A stretch of 64,000 nucleotides of DNA from contig NZ_PRLD01000004.1 of NCBI RefSeq assembly GCF_003287405.1, positions 1-64,000 of the forward strand. Reading direction: 5' to 3'. The first letter of the stretch is position 1, and each line of letters opens with the position of its first letter. A program made the translations under genes and the position numbers. The notes under the pieces are model-generated. The model did not search any database. It had not been told where the DNA came from and saw nothing but the letters and a program-made list of their open reading frames with translations. Below, piece by piece: positions 5 to 42,464 of this stretch. The stretch comes from Faecalibacterium prausnitzii (GTDB lineage: Bacteria; Bacillota; Clostridia; Oscillospirales; Ruminococcaceae).

Positions 5-124
<120 letters not shown>

Positions 125-9879: not shown

Positions 9880-9986
9880 ACGCTGTGTTCCTCCAAATGA
9901 CAGTTTATCTCTGAACAGCAGGGTGCTGGTCATGCAGTGATACGGGGCAGCCTGTGTGCCGGGAGCTTTCTCCTCGAACACGAGTA

Positions 9987-10100
9987 CGGGTTGCGGCACC
10001 CAGCGGATGCTTCGTGCATTGAGCAGCACTCGCATCCTGCTGGCCGCTGCCCCAACAGCAACTTCCTGTTTCCGCCACTGGCGGCGGTCGTTGCTGTTGC
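9987..10100 (-). ncRNA. Dispersed structured-RNA candidate, copy A
   Basis: First of three related ~113-nt segments. Predicted helices: CAACAGCAAC/GTTGCTGTTG closing a CCGCC-AGT-GGCGG hairpin followed by GAAACAGG; then GCGG/CCGC, CCAGC/GCTGG, GGATGC/GCATCC and GTGC/GCAC nested to one hairpin. It lies between thiE and thiC on the strand of the thi genes. It is not a TPP riboswitch. See the copies at 20677-20786 and 21318-21431. Confidence 0.65.
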
Positions 10101-10190
10101 GGGCCATTCCATCGCCCGCCCTACTGCCTGCGGCAGCAGGGTCCCACCCCAGCGGACGGTCCTCGGAGAAACTCCCGACCCGCAGGCAAG
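10101..10190 (-). other. Structured 5' extension of RNA copy A
   Basis: On the minus strand TGCCTGCGG (10188-10180) pairs with CCGCAGGCA (10133-10125), and GCGGGC/GCCCGC form a hairpin next to the start of copy A. Copies B and C lack this segment. The rest of the thiE-thiC spacer (10191-10337 and 9880-9986) shows no gene. Confidence 0.45.
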
Positions 10191-10337
10191 GGTGGCAGAC
10201 AGGTAGCCGTCATTCAGAAAAAACAGTACGCTCTGGATGCCGGCACCTGCGCAAAATACGCTTTTCATGTTGGTTTTCTCCATGAATTTTGTAACGCGGC
10301 CCAAGGTGGTGCCCCCGGTTTGCCGCGGGATGATAGC

Positions 10338-12573: not shown

Positions 12574-12593
12574 AAAAAATCATAAAGGATATG

Positions 12594-12680
12594 ACTTCCT
12601 ACGGCGGCATTATCCGCATCAGGTAAAAGGGTCGAAGCTTGCTATACTTCCTCTCAGCCCGCTGCACGAGCTCCCCTGTG
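12594..12680 (-). promoter_or_regulatory. TPP riboswitch (THI box)
   Basis: On the minus strand the conserved aptamer core is readable in order: ACAGGGGAGC, GGGCTGAGAGG, GACCC, then ACCTGATGCGGATAATGCC and GTAGGAAGT. This matches the thiamin pyrophosphate aptamer, and it precedes thiW-thiM-thiE. Confidence 0.95.
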
Positions 12681-12695
12681 TTTGATTGTGACTGT

Positions 12696-19811: not shown

Positions 19812-20678
19812 ATGGCACATACGCCTAAAAACCAGTCCGAAAAGGCGATTCTGACCGCCCGCCGTGCGTGGTGCTATCTGGTGCTGGTGCTGATCAGCTT
19901 TCTGTGCCTGTTCTTCTTCTATGTGCTGATCATCAACTCCACCCGCACCCACTTCGAAATCCAGAAGGGCTTCTCGCTGATGCCGGGCAAGTCCATCATC
20001 ACAAACTTCCGCAATGTGCTTACGGACGCCAACATCCCTGTGGTAAGCGGCATCCGCAACAGCCTGCTGGTGTCTGCCTGCTCGGCAGCGCTCAGCGTTT
20101 ACTTCTCGGCACTGACGGCCTACGGCATCTACGCCTATAACTTCAAATTCAAAAAGGCTGCCTTTGCCCTGATCCTGCTCATCATGACCATGCCCACACA
20201 GGTGTCCGCACTGGGCTTTCTGCAGTTAATCTCCAAGATGGGCTTGAAAAACAGCTTCATCCCGCTGATCGTCCCCAGCATTGCGGCCCCCACTGTGTTC
20301 TTCTTCATGAAGCAGTATCTGGACGCCTCCCTTCCCATGGAGATCGTGGAAGCCGCCCGCATTGACGGCGCAGGCGAGTTCTATACCTTTAATAAGATCG
20401 TGCTGCCCATCATGAAGCCGGCTCTGGCTGTGCAGGCCATCTTCTCCTTCGTGGCAAGCTGGAACAACTACTTCATCCCGGCTCTGGTGCTGGACACCGC
20501 CGACAAAAAGACCCTGCCTATCCTCATCGCCCAGCTGCGCAGCGCGGACTTCCTGAAGTTCGATATGGGCAAGGTGTACATGATGGTGGCCATCGCCATT
20601 CTGCCGGTCATCATCGTCTACCTGCTGCTGTCCAAGTTCATCGTCCGCGGCGTTGCTCTTGGCGGCGTTAAAGGCTAA
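19812..20678 (+). CDS. Sugar ABC transporter permease (MalG type)
   Basis: 288 aa, six membrane segments, with the EAA loop VEAARIDGAGEFYTFNKIVLP (in part). It is the second half of the sugar channel, starting 2 nt after the preceding permease stop, with GGAGGGAAATAAGT as ribosome site. The stop codon touches the start of structured-RNA copy C, and a strong terminator follows at 20832. Confidence 0.92.
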   Translation: MAHTPKNQSEKAILTARRAWCYLVLVLISFLCLFFFYVLIINSTRTHFEIQKGFSLMPGKSIITNFRNVLTDANIPVVSGIRNSLLVSACSAALSVYFSALTAYGIYAYNFKFKKAAFALILLIMTMPTQVSALGFLQLISKMGLKNSFIPLIVPSIAAPTVFFFMKQYLDASLPMEIVEAARIDGAGEFYTFNKIVLPIMKPALAVQAIFSFVASWNNYFIPALVLDTADKKTLPILIAQLRSADFLKFDMGKVYMMVAIAILPVIIVYLLLSKFIVRGVALGGVKG

Positions 20679-20786
20679 AATTGCGACCGCCGCCTGCGGC
20701 GGAAACAGGGAGCAATTTTTGGCGCAGCGGTCTGCAAGACGCGAGACCCGCCCAAGGGTCGAAGCGGATGCAGGGCACCGCAAGAG
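20677..20786 (+). ncRNA. Dispersed structured-RNA candidate, copy C
   Basis: It begins at the permease stop codon. AAAATTGC/GCAATTTT closes CCGCC-TGC-GGCGG with GAAACAGGG behind it; then GCGG/CCGC, CTGC/GCAG and GACCC/GGGTC with loop GCCCAA. Relative to copies A and B, three of these helices differ in sequence but keep pairing. Confidence 0.65.
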
Positions 20787-20831
20787 GTTTTAAGCGAACA
20801 ATAACACCTTCATTTCTCTGTTACAGCATAG

Positions 20832-20885: not shown

Positions 20886-20990
20886 ACGATTTGGAATGCG
20901 CTCCGCGTTCGCTTTGCGCATAAATAGCGGAAAGAATATTTTTATGTTTGCAACTCTGGAAAATCTGCGGATTTTCCAGAGTTGCTTTTT
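20886..20990 (+). repeat. Composite repeat R3
   Basis: The module ACGATTTGGAATGCGCTCCG... continues to ATAAATAGCGGAAA, then the perfect hairpin GCAACTCTGGAAAATC-TGCG-GATTTTCCAGAGTTGC (20950-20985) and five T. It is the cleanest copy and can act as a terminator. Confidence 0.75.
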
Positions 20991-21240: not shown

Positions 21241-21457
21241 AAAGGGGATTCAGAAACGCCCGCAGGCGTTTCTGAATCCCGAATTAAAAATAATTTTCCG
21301 CTGAAAATGGCTAGAGTGCAACAACGACGACCGCCACCAGCGGTGGAAACAGGGAGGAGTTGTTGGGGCAGCGGCCAGCAAGACGCGAGTGCCGCCCAAG
21401 GCACGATGCGGATGCTGGGTGCCGCAACCCGATAGCGGAAGCCATTCAAAATCGTCC
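21241..21457 (-). repeat. Composite repeat R4, interrupted by RNA copy B
   Basis: The hairpin GGGATTCAGAAACGCC-TGCG-GGCGTTTCTGAATCCC (21280-21245) and the TTTTCCGCT part of the module (to ~21303) lie on one side. The remaining CATTCAAAATCGTCC part (21443-21457) lies on the other. RNA copy B sits between them, bounded by AATGGCT (21306-21312) and AGCCATT (21440-21446). Confidence 0.6.
21318..21431 (+). ncRNA. Dispersed structured-RNA candidate, copy B
   Basis: CAACAAC/GTTGTTG closes CCACC-AGC-GGTGG and GAAACAGGG; then GCGG/CCGC, CCAGC/GCTGG and GTGCC/GGCAC with loop GCCCAA. It is about 80 percent identical by eye to copies A and C outside the stems. It reads toward the 3' end of def, which is on the other strand. 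Confidence 0.65.
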
Positions 21458-37297: not shown

Positions 37298-37321
37298 ATG
37301 GAGCGTACCAATTGAATACCG

Positions 37322-37417
37322 ACTTATCAAGAGCGGCTGAGGGGACAGGCCCTGTGAAGCCCGACAACCTGCGCGAGAGCGTAAGGTGCCAAATCCTGCG
37401 GGAAACCGGAAGATAAG
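37322..37417 (+). promoter_or_regulatory. SAM-I riboswitch (S box)
   Basis: S-box core readable in order: ACTTATCAAGAGCGG, CTGAGGGGACAGGCCC, GAAGCCCGACAACC, AGGTGCCAAATCC, GGGAAACCGGAAGATAAG (in part). The first and last segments pair (CTTATC/GATAAG). It controls metK. Confidence 0.96.
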
Positions 37418-37424
37418 AGTGCAA

Positions 37425-40049: not shown

Positions 40050-42464
40050 ATGGAGTTGGATCAGGAAAAGCAGAATCAGGAGGCCGCCGAGCGCTGCCGT
40101 GCACTGGCACAGCGCATCGTGCGGGAACTGGCACCCCGCAGTGTGCAGGTGCTGGAGAACAGCGGCCTGCTGGAAGAGGCTTTTGGCAAAATGAATACCA
40201 CGGTGGTGCAAAGCAGCCCGGAGCTGCTGGTGGTGGCAGACCCTCAGTGGGTCACCCTGCCCGCCGTGCAGGCCGAAAAGGTGATGCTGGTGTGCGATGA
40301 GTACACCGGTATGGCAGACTGCGCAAAGCAGCTTGCCGCACAGGGCTTTTGCCGGGAGTTTGCATGGAAGGACAGCGGCAAGGAGCAGCTGACGGCGCTG
40401 TTCTGCCGCATGGCTGCCCCGGAGCTGCCGGAGCTGGAGACGGGCTATGAGCAGCAGCTGGACGTTTTGCGGGAGCGTACTGCGCAGGCCGAGCGCACCG
40501 CCGCCGAACAGGCTGCCCAGCTGGAGCGGCTGCGCAGCGACCTTTCCCTGAGCCGCAGCCACGAGCAGGACTTGGAAAAGACCCTGAACAGTGTGGTCAA
40601 CTCCACCTTCTGGAGGGCCAGCTGGCCGCTGCGGTATCTGGTAAGCAAGTGCCGCCAACTGTGGCGCAGCTTCCCGCTCTTCGTCTTTTTTGCCACCCTG
40701 CGCCGGGTGGGCTTTGCGGGCGTAATGGCACAGGCCAAGGCCAAGCGGGAGTATAAAAAGCTGTTCCCGGGCAAGGCCATGCCCGCCGACCGCTTTGCGG
40801 ACGTGGAACTGCTGGTAAAGCAGGCCGCAGACCAGCCCGCTGCACCGTGCATCAGCATCGTGGTGCCGCTGTACAACACCCCCCACGATTTTCTGGTGGA
40901 GCTGCTGGACTCGGTGCAGAACCAGACCTACCGCAACTGGGAGCTGTGCATGGTGGATGCCGGACAGGACGCGGACGTGGGTGTCCTTGTGCAGGAGCGT
41001 GCCCGCACCGACAGCCGCATCCGCTACCGGAAACTGGACAGCAACGAGGGCATTGCGGGCAACACCAATCAGGGCTTTGCCCTTGCCACGGGTGAATATA
41101 TCGCTCTGCTGGACCATGACGACATCCTGCACCCCTGTGCACTGTGGTATGTGGCGGAAGCCATTGCCAAGCAGGGCGCGGACTTTGTGTACACCGACGA
41201 AGTGACCTTTGAAGGGGACATCGACCACCTGACGGTCTACCACTTCAAGCCGGATTATATGCTGGATAACCTGCGCTCCAACAACTATATCTGCCACCTG
41301 AGCGTGTTCAGCGCGGCGCTGCTGGCAAAGGTGGGCGGCGACGAGCGGGCAGAGTTCAACGGCAGTCAGGATTACGACCTCTACCTGCGCCTGACCGAGC
41401 AGGCAGAGAAGATCGTGCACATCCCGCATCTGCTGTACTACTGGCGTTCCAGCCCCGCAAGCGTGGCCAGCAACATCTCCGCCAAGACCTACTGTCTGGA
41501 AGCAGCTATGAAGGCGCTGCGCGCCCACTACGACCGCATGGGCGTGCCGGTGGACGCAGTGACCATGGTGCCCAACACCCCGGGCTTTTATAAGACCGAT
41601 TACACCATCACAAAGCCCGGGCGGGTCAGCGTGCTGATCCCCAGCTGCGACCATTCGGGCGACCTGCGGGTGTGCGTGGAGTCCATCTACCGCAAGACCA
41701 CCTACCCGGATTTTGAAGTGATCATCATCGAGAACAACAGCAAGGAGCCTGCCACCTTCCGCTGCTACGAGCAGCTGCAAAAGGAGTACCAGGACACTCT
41801 GCATCTGCTCACATGGCAGGGCACCGGCTTCAATTACAGCGCCCTGAACAACTTTGGCGCAAAGGCTGCCACCGGCGAGTATCTGCTGCTGCTCAACAAC
41901 GACACCGAGGTCATCTCTCCCCGCTGGATGGAAGAGATGGTCATGTACGCCCAGCAGGATCGCGTGGGCTGCGTAGGCGCAAAGCTGCTCTACCCGGACA
42001 ACACCATCCAGCACGCAGGCATCGGCTTTGGTTTCCGGACGCTGGCGGCGCATATGCACAAGAACTTCCCTGTGGGACACCCCGGCTATATGGGACGGCT
42101 TTCCTACGCGCAGGACGTGTACGCGGTGACCGCCGCCTGCCTGATGGTGCGCAAGGATGTGTACGAGCAGGTGGGCGGGCTGGACGAGAGCTTTGCCGTG
42201 GCCTTCAACGACGTGGACTTCTGCGTCCGTGTGCGGGAGGCAGGCTACACCAATGTGTTCACCCCCTTTGCGCAGCTGTACCACTACGAGAGCAAGAGCC
42301 GCGGCTTGGACGAGAGCCCGGTCAAGCGCAAGCGCTTTGTCTCCGAGGTGGAGCGCTTCCAGAAGCGGTGGGCAAAGCAGCTGGCTGCGGGCGACCCCTG
42401 CATGAACCCCAACTTTGATCTGATGAAGGAGGACTTCAGCTTTGACATCAAGCCGCTGGAGTGA
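40050..42464 (+). CDS. Two-domain family-2 glycosyltransferase
   Basis: 804 aa. Residues ~1-140 are an unrecognised N-terminal region, ~145-185 a coiled coil rich in Glu, Arg and Ala, followed by a basic linker. GT2 domain 1 starts at CISIVVPLYN (~268) with ALLDHDD as the nucleotide-sugar DxD site. GT2 domain 2 starts at VSVLIPSCDH (~530) with LLLNNDTE. This architecture is common in rhamnan/O-antigen-like polysaccharide synthases (WsaE/RgpF neighbours). The ATG at 40050 follows TTGGAG; an earlier in-frame ATG at 39999 has no ribosome site. The neighbouring rhamnose genes suggest transfer of rhamnose-containing chains. Confidence 0.85.
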   Translation: MELDQEKQNQEAAERCRALAQRIVRELAPRSVQVLENSGLLEEAFGKMNTTVVQSSPELLVVADPQWVTLPAVQAEKVMLVCDEYTGMADCAKQLAAQGFCREFAWKDSGKEQLTALFCRMAAPELPELETGYEQQLDVLRERTAQAERTAAEQAAQLERLRSDLSLSRSHEQDLEKTLNSVVNSTFWRASWPLRYLVSKCRQLWRSFPLFVFFATLRRVGFAGVMAQAKAKREYKKLFPGKAMPADRFADVELLVKQAADQPAAPCISIVVPLYNTPHDFLVELLDSVQNQTYRNWELCMVDAGQDADVGVLVQERARTDSRIRYRKLDSNEGIAGNTNQGFALATGEYIALLDHDDILHPCALWYVAEAIAKQGADFVYTDEVTFEGDIDHLTVYHFKPDYMLDNLRSNNYICHLSVFSAALLAKVGGDERAEFNGSQDYDLYLRLTEQAEKIVHIPHLLYYWRSSPASVASNISAKTYCLEAAMKALRAHYDRMGVPVDAVTMVPNTPGFYKTDYTITKPGRVSVLIPSCDHSGDLRVCVESIYRKTTYPDFEVIIIENNSKEPATFRCYEQLQKEYQDTLHLLTWQGTGFNYSALNNFGAKAATGEYLLLLNNDTEVISPRWMEEMVMYAQQDRVGCVGAKLLYPDNTIQHAGIGFGFRTLAAHMHKNFPVGHPGYMGRLSYAQDVYAVTAACLMVRKDVYEQVGGLDESFAVAFNDVDFCVRVREAGYTNVFTPFAQLYHYESKSRGLDESPVKRKRFVSEVERFQKRWAKQLAAGDPCMNPNFDLMKEDFSFDIKPLE

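Follow-up and report, generated by a model that had tools for sequence, protein, structure and literature searches.

Short folded non-coding elements, possibly mobile, recur at tRNA genes and gene ends of gut Clostridia

A structured repeat family in Faecalibacterium

Here, we describe a family of short (~114 nt) non-coding sequences with a conserved two-domain fold, three copies of which (A, B, and C) lie in a 64-kb stretch of a Faecalibacterium prausnitzii genome (contig NZ_PRLD01000004.1, positions 1 to 64,000; the whole stretch analyzed is called the window in the following). The existence of the family is well supported: its members occur in high copy numbers, take a recurrent arrangement with tRNA genes, stand at fixed positions at the ends of two kinds of protein-coding gene, and leave one clean empty site in related genomes. 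That they are non-autonomous mobile elements is, in our estimate, roughly an even call. At no copy, whether in the window or at the other loci (numbered L; genomes are numbered G), did a family of Rfam 15 reach its gathering score, E-value mode included—the strongest overlap being P15 at L056, with 35.2 bits against a gathering score of 70—and we recognized no description of the family in the literature searched, which left out preprints and most subscription papers. The family is apparently undescribed so far.

The copies were located with two covariance models, R1 (eight copies) and R2 (41 diverse matches), whose E-values are rough after a short calibration. The R2 matches place copy A at 9984–10104 on the minus strand (E = 3e-20), in the thiE-thiC spacer; copy B at 21314–21434 on the plus strand (E = 1.1e-22), 3′ of a peptide deformylase gene that runs on the opposite strand; and copy C at 20670–20790 on the plus strand (E = 4.7e-22), starting within the 3′ end of an ATP-binding cassette (ABC) permease gene whose stop codon, TAA, falls in stem P1. 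An initial annotation, made from the letters alone, had reported three copies of a structured RNA at essentially these places; its limits were too narrow, with A lying within a stretch of ~267 bp and B within a second outer repeat. For B we set the inserted core of 114 nt at 21320–21433 (plus), taking a sister copy's empty site as the model, and for A the whole stretch at 9934–10200 (minus), with limits derived by hand and inverted ends GGGAGTTTCTCC...GGAGAAAGCTCCC among its outer arms.

Aligned with short flanks, the three window copies have a mean column identity of 76%. The conserved motif order that the initial annotation had pointed out holds: the ordered motif GACCGCC..GAAACAGG..CAGCGG is found three times in the window and in none of 100 dinucleotide shuffles, and ten times in the window's genome, where a reversed control pattern is found zero times. 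Minimum free energy (MFE) z-scores are -6.0, -4.7, and -2.4. A fourth, weak R2 match in the window (40788–40885, E = 0.42) is regarded as chance.

Covariation defines two domains

Stem P1, the hairpin P1b inside it, and an internal motif, CGACC/GGGAG, make up domain 1, and P2, P3, and P4 make up domain 2. In copy B, on the plus strand, domain 1 covers 21319–21365 (P1 21319–21325/21359–21365; P1b 21334–21338/21342–21346) and domain 2 covers 21371–21425 (P2 21371–21375/21421–21425; P3 21376–21380/21413–21417; P4 21389–21393/21400–21404), the stem positions being alignment columns converted by hand to window coordinates.

Among 41 aligned copies (40 distinct), 29 of the 34 pairs show two-sided changes, and 95.8% of cells are pairing in this alignment, which was fitted to the model structure so that pairing is partly built in. 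Slid and shuffled controls serve as the safeguard: 262 two-sided cells were counted, whereas 500 shuffles gave 68±7 and the slid controls no more than 66. The compensatory stem changes already seen by the initial annotation map to P1, P1b, P3, and P4. Unpaired motifs are conserved in the alignments as well.

A Watson-Crick pair ties the two domains together. It joins the base X of the junction sequence 'G-X-GC', which precedes P2, to the base directly behind the 3′ CAA (N1), and both change in concert, the pair X:N1 being C:G with GAG in 124 of 124 cases, G:C with CCC in 32 of 33, and T:A with ACG in 9 of 11; misfits among the rarer triplets listed amount to three single copies (CTT, TCC, and CAA). 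Model R2 drew the junction base to the third base after CAA; the first base is the better partner.

Copy number and host range

Applied to the window's own genome, R1 returned 15 copies at E<1e-10, and a sixteenth match (E = 0.22) was dropped as chance; the multi-copy nature assumed by the initial annotation is borne out, and probable mobility is supported by the empty site described below. At E≤0.01, copies were present in 29 of 41 genomes including the window's own: 24 of the 25 genomes of the genus (own included), with 0 to 68 copies each, and 5 of the 16 other genomes of the order. Copy number peaks at 68 in G014; it is 57 in G001, 45 in G023, 42 in G004, and zero in G007, an assembly that is 83% complete.

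Across the order Oscillospirales, at least 135 of 394 genomes and at least 63 of 168 genera hold a copy (E≤0.001); these counts are lower bounds and misses are likely, because only nine candidates per genome were scored. The class scan yielded 49 of 391 genomes (E≤1e-4) and the phylum scan 5 of 398, three of which are the window's own genome or belong to its family or order. A pattern scan of named genomes gave at least 116 stretches, of which 80 were examined, in metagenome-assembled genomes of Clostridia, in Ruminococcus, Gemmiger, Fournierella, Faecalibacterium, and others, and in one genome labeled Melainabacteria.

With copy B as the blastn query (diverged copies were untried in both searches), plasmids gave no match and phage records 19, of which the eight listed are unannotated fecal contigs. 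On viral contigs, two exact patterns picked out 21 stretches; only three places on two contigs were confirmed by the model. Many copies in the order and class scans lie at contig ends, which suggests that the element breaks genome assemblies.

Copies at tRNA genes sit in a recurrent arrangement

Of 84 distinct copies assigned to other genera (L054, a weak match from within the genus, is among them), 40 have a tRNA gene no more than 300 bp away, and in 37 of these cases the strands agree. The named-genome scan overlaps in part with this set; there, 40 of the 86 copies listed come equally close to a tRNA gene, compared with 6.4% of random positions from those loci, and all 40 match it in strand.

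When all loci are taken together, a tRNA gene on the same strand lies within 120 bp of 70 copies, of which 54 are downstream and 16 upstream of it. Directly after the element, 37 of the 54 downstream copies resume with at least 12 nt of the neighboring tRNA (other-tRNA control 0.8), and 21 of the 54 carry directly before it at least 10 nt antisense to that tRNA (control 1.1). Correspondingly, 13 of the 16 upstream copies are directly preceded by at least 12 nt of the tRNA 5′ part (control 0.2). In these counts two loci without usable tRNA letters (L199 and L216) rank as misses, and related genomes are counted separately. This architecture is well supported. The antisense piece overlaps the arm where the sense copy resumes (Met 28–46, Asn 26–39, Ser 65–75, and Trp 51–61 are examples), so that in such copies a truncated tRNA gene forms a fold-back with the element at its tip. 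At five loci, two tandem units of ~203–290 bp repeat the tRNA piece; as these units include non-tRNA DNA (upstream region or terminator), the tandem duplication took place at the DNA level.

One way to read the antisense segment 5′ of the core is as the guide of an RNA-guided insertion, for which omega-RNA, bridge-RNA, and the homing of CRISPR-associated transposons (CAST) are models. The excess of antisense pieces over the control, together with their overlap with the resumed sense arm, would suit such a guide; yet the same pieces are equally explained as one fold-back arm, none is evident in the Faecalibacterium outer repeats, and the candidate enzymes fail to follow the element—no IscB was found over cut-off, and IS110 is absent from several high-copy genomes. 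We consider a guide very unlikely.

Fixed positions at gene ends and properties of the flanks

A second kind of insertion place is the 3′ end of protein-coding genes. At guaA, the element has an identical offset from the stop codon in six loci, which represent five places since L075 and L096 coincide, and the offset is likewise fixed at the ABC permease gene ends of three loci and the window. NCBIfam names guaA in three submitted loci, and the submitted permeases belong to Pfam BPD_transp_1. A search of ten loci for a direct repeat of the guaA or permease gene end, over up to 800 bp downstream (less than 100 bp in two), found at best 6–10 nt. Streptococcal tyrosine-integrase integrative and conjugative elements (ICEs) at tRNA and guaA 3′ ends have direct repeats of 12–54 bp (PMC4701971).

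This comparison bears on a tyrosine-integrase satellite, that is, small circles that carry a tRNA 3′ end and integrate at tRNA genes and guaA. The remainder of the tRNA 3′ end after the element in 37 of 54 copies, the tandem units each with a tRNA piece, a tyrosine-integrase gene within 4 kb at three places, and targets that are those of the streptococcal ICEs (PMC4701971) all speak in its favor. However, repeats of 6–10 nt fall short of the ICE values, 16 copies lie upstream of the tRNA, 13 of them with its 5′ part, and many Faecalibacterium copies are housed in other repeats, so that we rate such a satellite as unlikely.

The immediate flanks have features of their own. Of 200 copies, 98% have a G directly in front of P1, and the next two bases outward are G in 76% and 61%; copies start directly 3′ of GG/GGG or GC. 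Moreover, the two flanks complement each other in exact runs of at least 8 bp in 17% of 135 non-redundant copies, compared with 3.6% for swapped flanks (p=3e-9), and in 129 copies complementarity also exceeds that of their own flanks when displaced (p=0.006).

Presence, absence, and outer repeats

Among 15 thiC loci, the element was found upstream only in the window's genome. The thiE-thiC spacer is shared by G005 and G009, where the ~267-bp stretch is absent (with 14 other nt in its place in G005), and the other thiC loci carry different sequences in that place. The outer arms of copy A recur around a copy elsewhere in G006 (L034). Of 13 permease loci, 12 were read: in G000 and G015 the gene's 3′ end carries the element, and at eight loci (those of G004 and G009 among them) there is none. 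The two others hold natural domain variants, in G005 an element with ~50 extra nt in P1b (L272) and in G006 one without exactly P2–P4 (L275). A further arrangement behind an ABC permease was observed at L021 (G000:C50:161644-162020), where three element units of ~130 bp stand in tandem, with domain 1 swapped for other sequence in two of the three and domain 2 identical.

At one locus, a clean empty site exists in two related genomes, G005 and G022: the empty sequence reads AGAGCGC directly followed by AGCGG, and the filled one AGAGTGC, ~114 nt, AGCGG, with no duplication. The core of ~114 bp resembles a precise insertion there.

The second outer repeat, also of Faecalibacterium, hosts many cores and exists without them, too, with nine core-less copies found. 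Its layout is CCGTGAAAA, a variable hairpin with a CCGCAG-like loop, an AT-rich linker, and a proposed H-type pseudoknot, TTCCGCT..AATGGC..AGCGG..GCCATT. We found it at 21245–21446 and 20890–20932 (minus) in the window and at L003, L008, L027, L257, L286, L288, and L289. Around copy B, on the plus strand, the variable hairpin occupies 21245–21280, upstream of the copy; the 5′ strands 21298–21311 (CCGCT 21298–21302, AATGGC 21306–21311); and the 3′ strands 21434–21446 (AGCGG 21434–21438, GCCATT 21441–21446). The repeat at 20890–20932 is core-less and was found in L271, which covers this place. CCGCT/AGCGG and AATGGC/GCCATT are crossed, and the latter changes in step to ATGCCC/GGGCAT and ATGCGC/GCGCAT; judged from sequence, these strands would form the pseudoknot. 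The core stands directly before the AGCGG strand.

Identical cores occur at different places in G006 (four) and in G011 (four), with similar outer sequence, which points to core and outer repeat having spread recently as a unit. Round the identical cores of G011 (L333–L336), we observed another outer repeat with crossed, pseudoknot-like inverted repeats, GCTAGCCGCTGCGCTAA..TTAGCGCAGCGGCTAGC and GAAGCACAAAAA..TTTTTGTGCTTC. In addition, L329–L332 and L347 have similar outer sequences in swapped 5′/3′ order, as if circularly permuted, and these swapped arms could hint at a circular intermediate.

A proposed mobile folded strand and its alternatives

As to mechanism, we infer that what moves is a single folded strand, most likely of DNA, which a recombinase or transposase supplied in trans would recognize. 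Copies of the element lie in tRNA arms, in other repeats of a palindromic or pseudoknot-like make, and where guaA and ABC permease genes end, places that often have inverted repeats on either side. A more specific version—a new class of homing element in which an enzyme places a folded core with swappable, target-complementary arms at GGG in tRNA genes and gene ends, the arms being antisense pieces of a tRNA anticodon or T arm or matching other repeats—strikes us as quite improbable.

The lean toward DNA comes from G·U pairs, which are rare compared with tRNAs. Of the 5954 standard pairs counted over 196 distinct copies, 115 (1.9%) are G·U, with 1 of 965 in P1b, and 102 of 5780 once the junction pair, which holds 13 G·U cells, is left out. 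In 144 tRNAs of the same loci, the figure is 230 of 3188 (7.2%), a yardstick rather than a perfect control, as ARAGORN brackets accepted pairs only. In P2–P4, A·C mismatches (38) are nearly as frequent as G·U pairs (48). The initial annotation had left selection open between RNA and single-stranded DNA structure; structure stands, and the scarcity of G·U leans to selection on folded DNA strands over RNA.

The alternative is a functional RNA, processed for instance from tRNA or mRNA transcripts and selected at gene 3′ ends, whose mobility would be incidental. It gains from the fixed strand relative to tRNA genes in both copy sets, the stop-codon offset that stays constant across genomes at guaA and the permease, the conserved unpaired motifs, and the low MFE z-scores, and it would explain the G·U excess in P1 (see below). 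Such an RNA fits poorly with a copy number between none (in the incomplete G007) and 68 in one genus, with the precise empty site, with G·U pairs so scarce beside those of tRNAs, and with the many copies within other repeats. We regard it as possible but doubtful.

Several results weigh against a mobile DNA element with a trans-acting enzyme. In P1, G·U pairs outnumber A·C mismatches 50 to 8, which fits RNA; the G·U column concerned is common to related Faecalibacterium copies. At the remaining two of the three loci compared, core-less sites exist but are more rearranged. An earlier flank test, which scored duplex energy over segments of 45 nt, gave no significant result (p 0.07 and 0.16), and no replication-strand bias was seen for the 89 listed copies of five single-contig genomes (51 of 89, p 0.2, with the origin assumed at base 1). 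The search for an enzyme belongs here as well. Of 1401 neighboring open reading frames (ORFs; at least 100 amino acids, within 4 kb) around 161 loci, some of them the same place twice, the 25 largest clusters were read, and no general mobilizing protein was among them, in line with the initial annotation, which had linked no protein to the element. IscB, sought by its RRXRR domain (PF14239), was found over cut-off in 0 of 41 genomes, 29 of which carry the element, with one weak match in G037; the search matched in none of 14 control genomes either, which leaves its sensitivity unproven. Y1_Tnp (PF01797) is present in 16 of 41 genomes, without relation to copy number, and an IS110 recombinase in 14 of 41, with none in G000, G005, G001, G014, G010, G016, or G023.

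Some clusters and neighbors deserve mention. The largest cluster (17 loci) begins with an ABC-transporter/FtsX protein and looks generic; those tied to the element are guaA (with antisense frames) and frames through the element or the tRNA itself. A tyrosine-integrase cluster occurs within 4 kb at three places; its member at L105 is a Pfam Phage_integrase. Another cluster, of large serine recombinases, is likewise present at three places, the gene ending 7 bp before one copy (L060/L093, G220). Pfam also identifies a resolvase gene between two copies of L153. Gaps of 350–5000 bp between neighboring copies hold no common cargo. The mobilizing enzyme may belong to the host, may be a recombinase of a common type, or may be confined to some strains.

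The Y1 results bear on a kinship, as non-autonomous relatives, with IS200/IS605 hairpin elements. No target duplication at the clean site and imperfect hairpins at both ends would agree with it, as would the junction base that pairs with a base near the 3′ end, a pair reminiscent of guide/cleavage-site pairing. Yet Y1_Tnp is missing from several copy-rich genomes (G001, G014, G004, and G023) and also from G005 and G020, both single-contig assemblies; the gene of G000 holds a stop codon; and the 89 copies examined for it lack a strand bias. We give this kinship hardly any credence.

Comparison with known elements

We file the element among the small non-autonomous interspersed repeats, outside every family tested. 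Bacterial repeats resembling miniature inverted-repeat transposable elements (MITEs), such as ERIC, RUP, BOX, Correia, and REP, are likewise short, gene-less, multi-copy, palindromic, and mostly intergenic. In contrast to these, the present element combines an elaborate fold with unpaired motifs conserved across families of Clostridia, shows no duplication at its clean site, and turns up repeatedly within arms of tRNAs and at the 3′ ends of genes. Of the features that classically mark a MITE—terminal inverted repeats and a target duplication—the duplication is missing here, and inverted ends were seen in the larger unit of copy A.

The tyrT repeats/rtT RNA of E. coli are also tandem units downstream of a tRNA, each with a tRNA 3′ piece; our element, unlike rtT, is without an Rfam match, occurs at many tRNAs with antisense arm pieces, and is found away from tRNAs, too. 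HEARO/omega-RNAs, a family tentatively suggested by the initial annotation, share the multi-copy, structured, and often gene-less character and insert without duplication, but no Rfam HEARO match was obtained, and with neither IscB over cut-off in the 41 genomes nor Y1_Tnp in several top-copy genomes this suggestion found no support. Integron attC sites resemble the element in being folded single strands read through structure, of variable sequence and arranged in arrays; conserved inner motifs such as those of our element are not known from attC, although no search aimed at attC core sites or integron integrases was made. The ICEs at tRNA and guaA 3′ ends (PMC4701971) have the same kinds of targets, whereas our element carries no integrase in its unit and, in the downstream DNA searched, no guaA direct repeat over 10 nt.

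Surroundings of the window copies

NCBIfam names thiC, thiE, and peptide deformylase in the window, as in the initial annotation. The third context, a 'sugar' operon, is upheld as far as the permease is concerned: the gene before copy C encodes an ABC permease (Pfam BPD_transp_1), of sugar type only likely, since its resemblance to sugar permeases falls under the NCBIfam cut-offs. No tRNA gene lies within the 64-kb window. An Rfam search also located a thiamine pyrophosphate (TPP) riboswitch at 12579–12687 (minus), an S-adenosylmethionine (SAM) riboswitch at 37321–37419 (plus), and a 5S rRNA at 7–123 (plus).

Implications

If the proposed mobility is true, a gene-less mobile sequence is widespread in gut Clostridia, the abundant commensal Faecalibacterium among them, and has landed repeatedly within tRNA genes as well as at conserved gene ends, and part of the variable intergenic DNA in these genomes would be accounted for. 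The natural pairs of sites with and without the element provide a handle for finding a recombinase. Finally, the family makes it testable whether strong covariation is a sign of RNA function or of the recognition of folded DNA.
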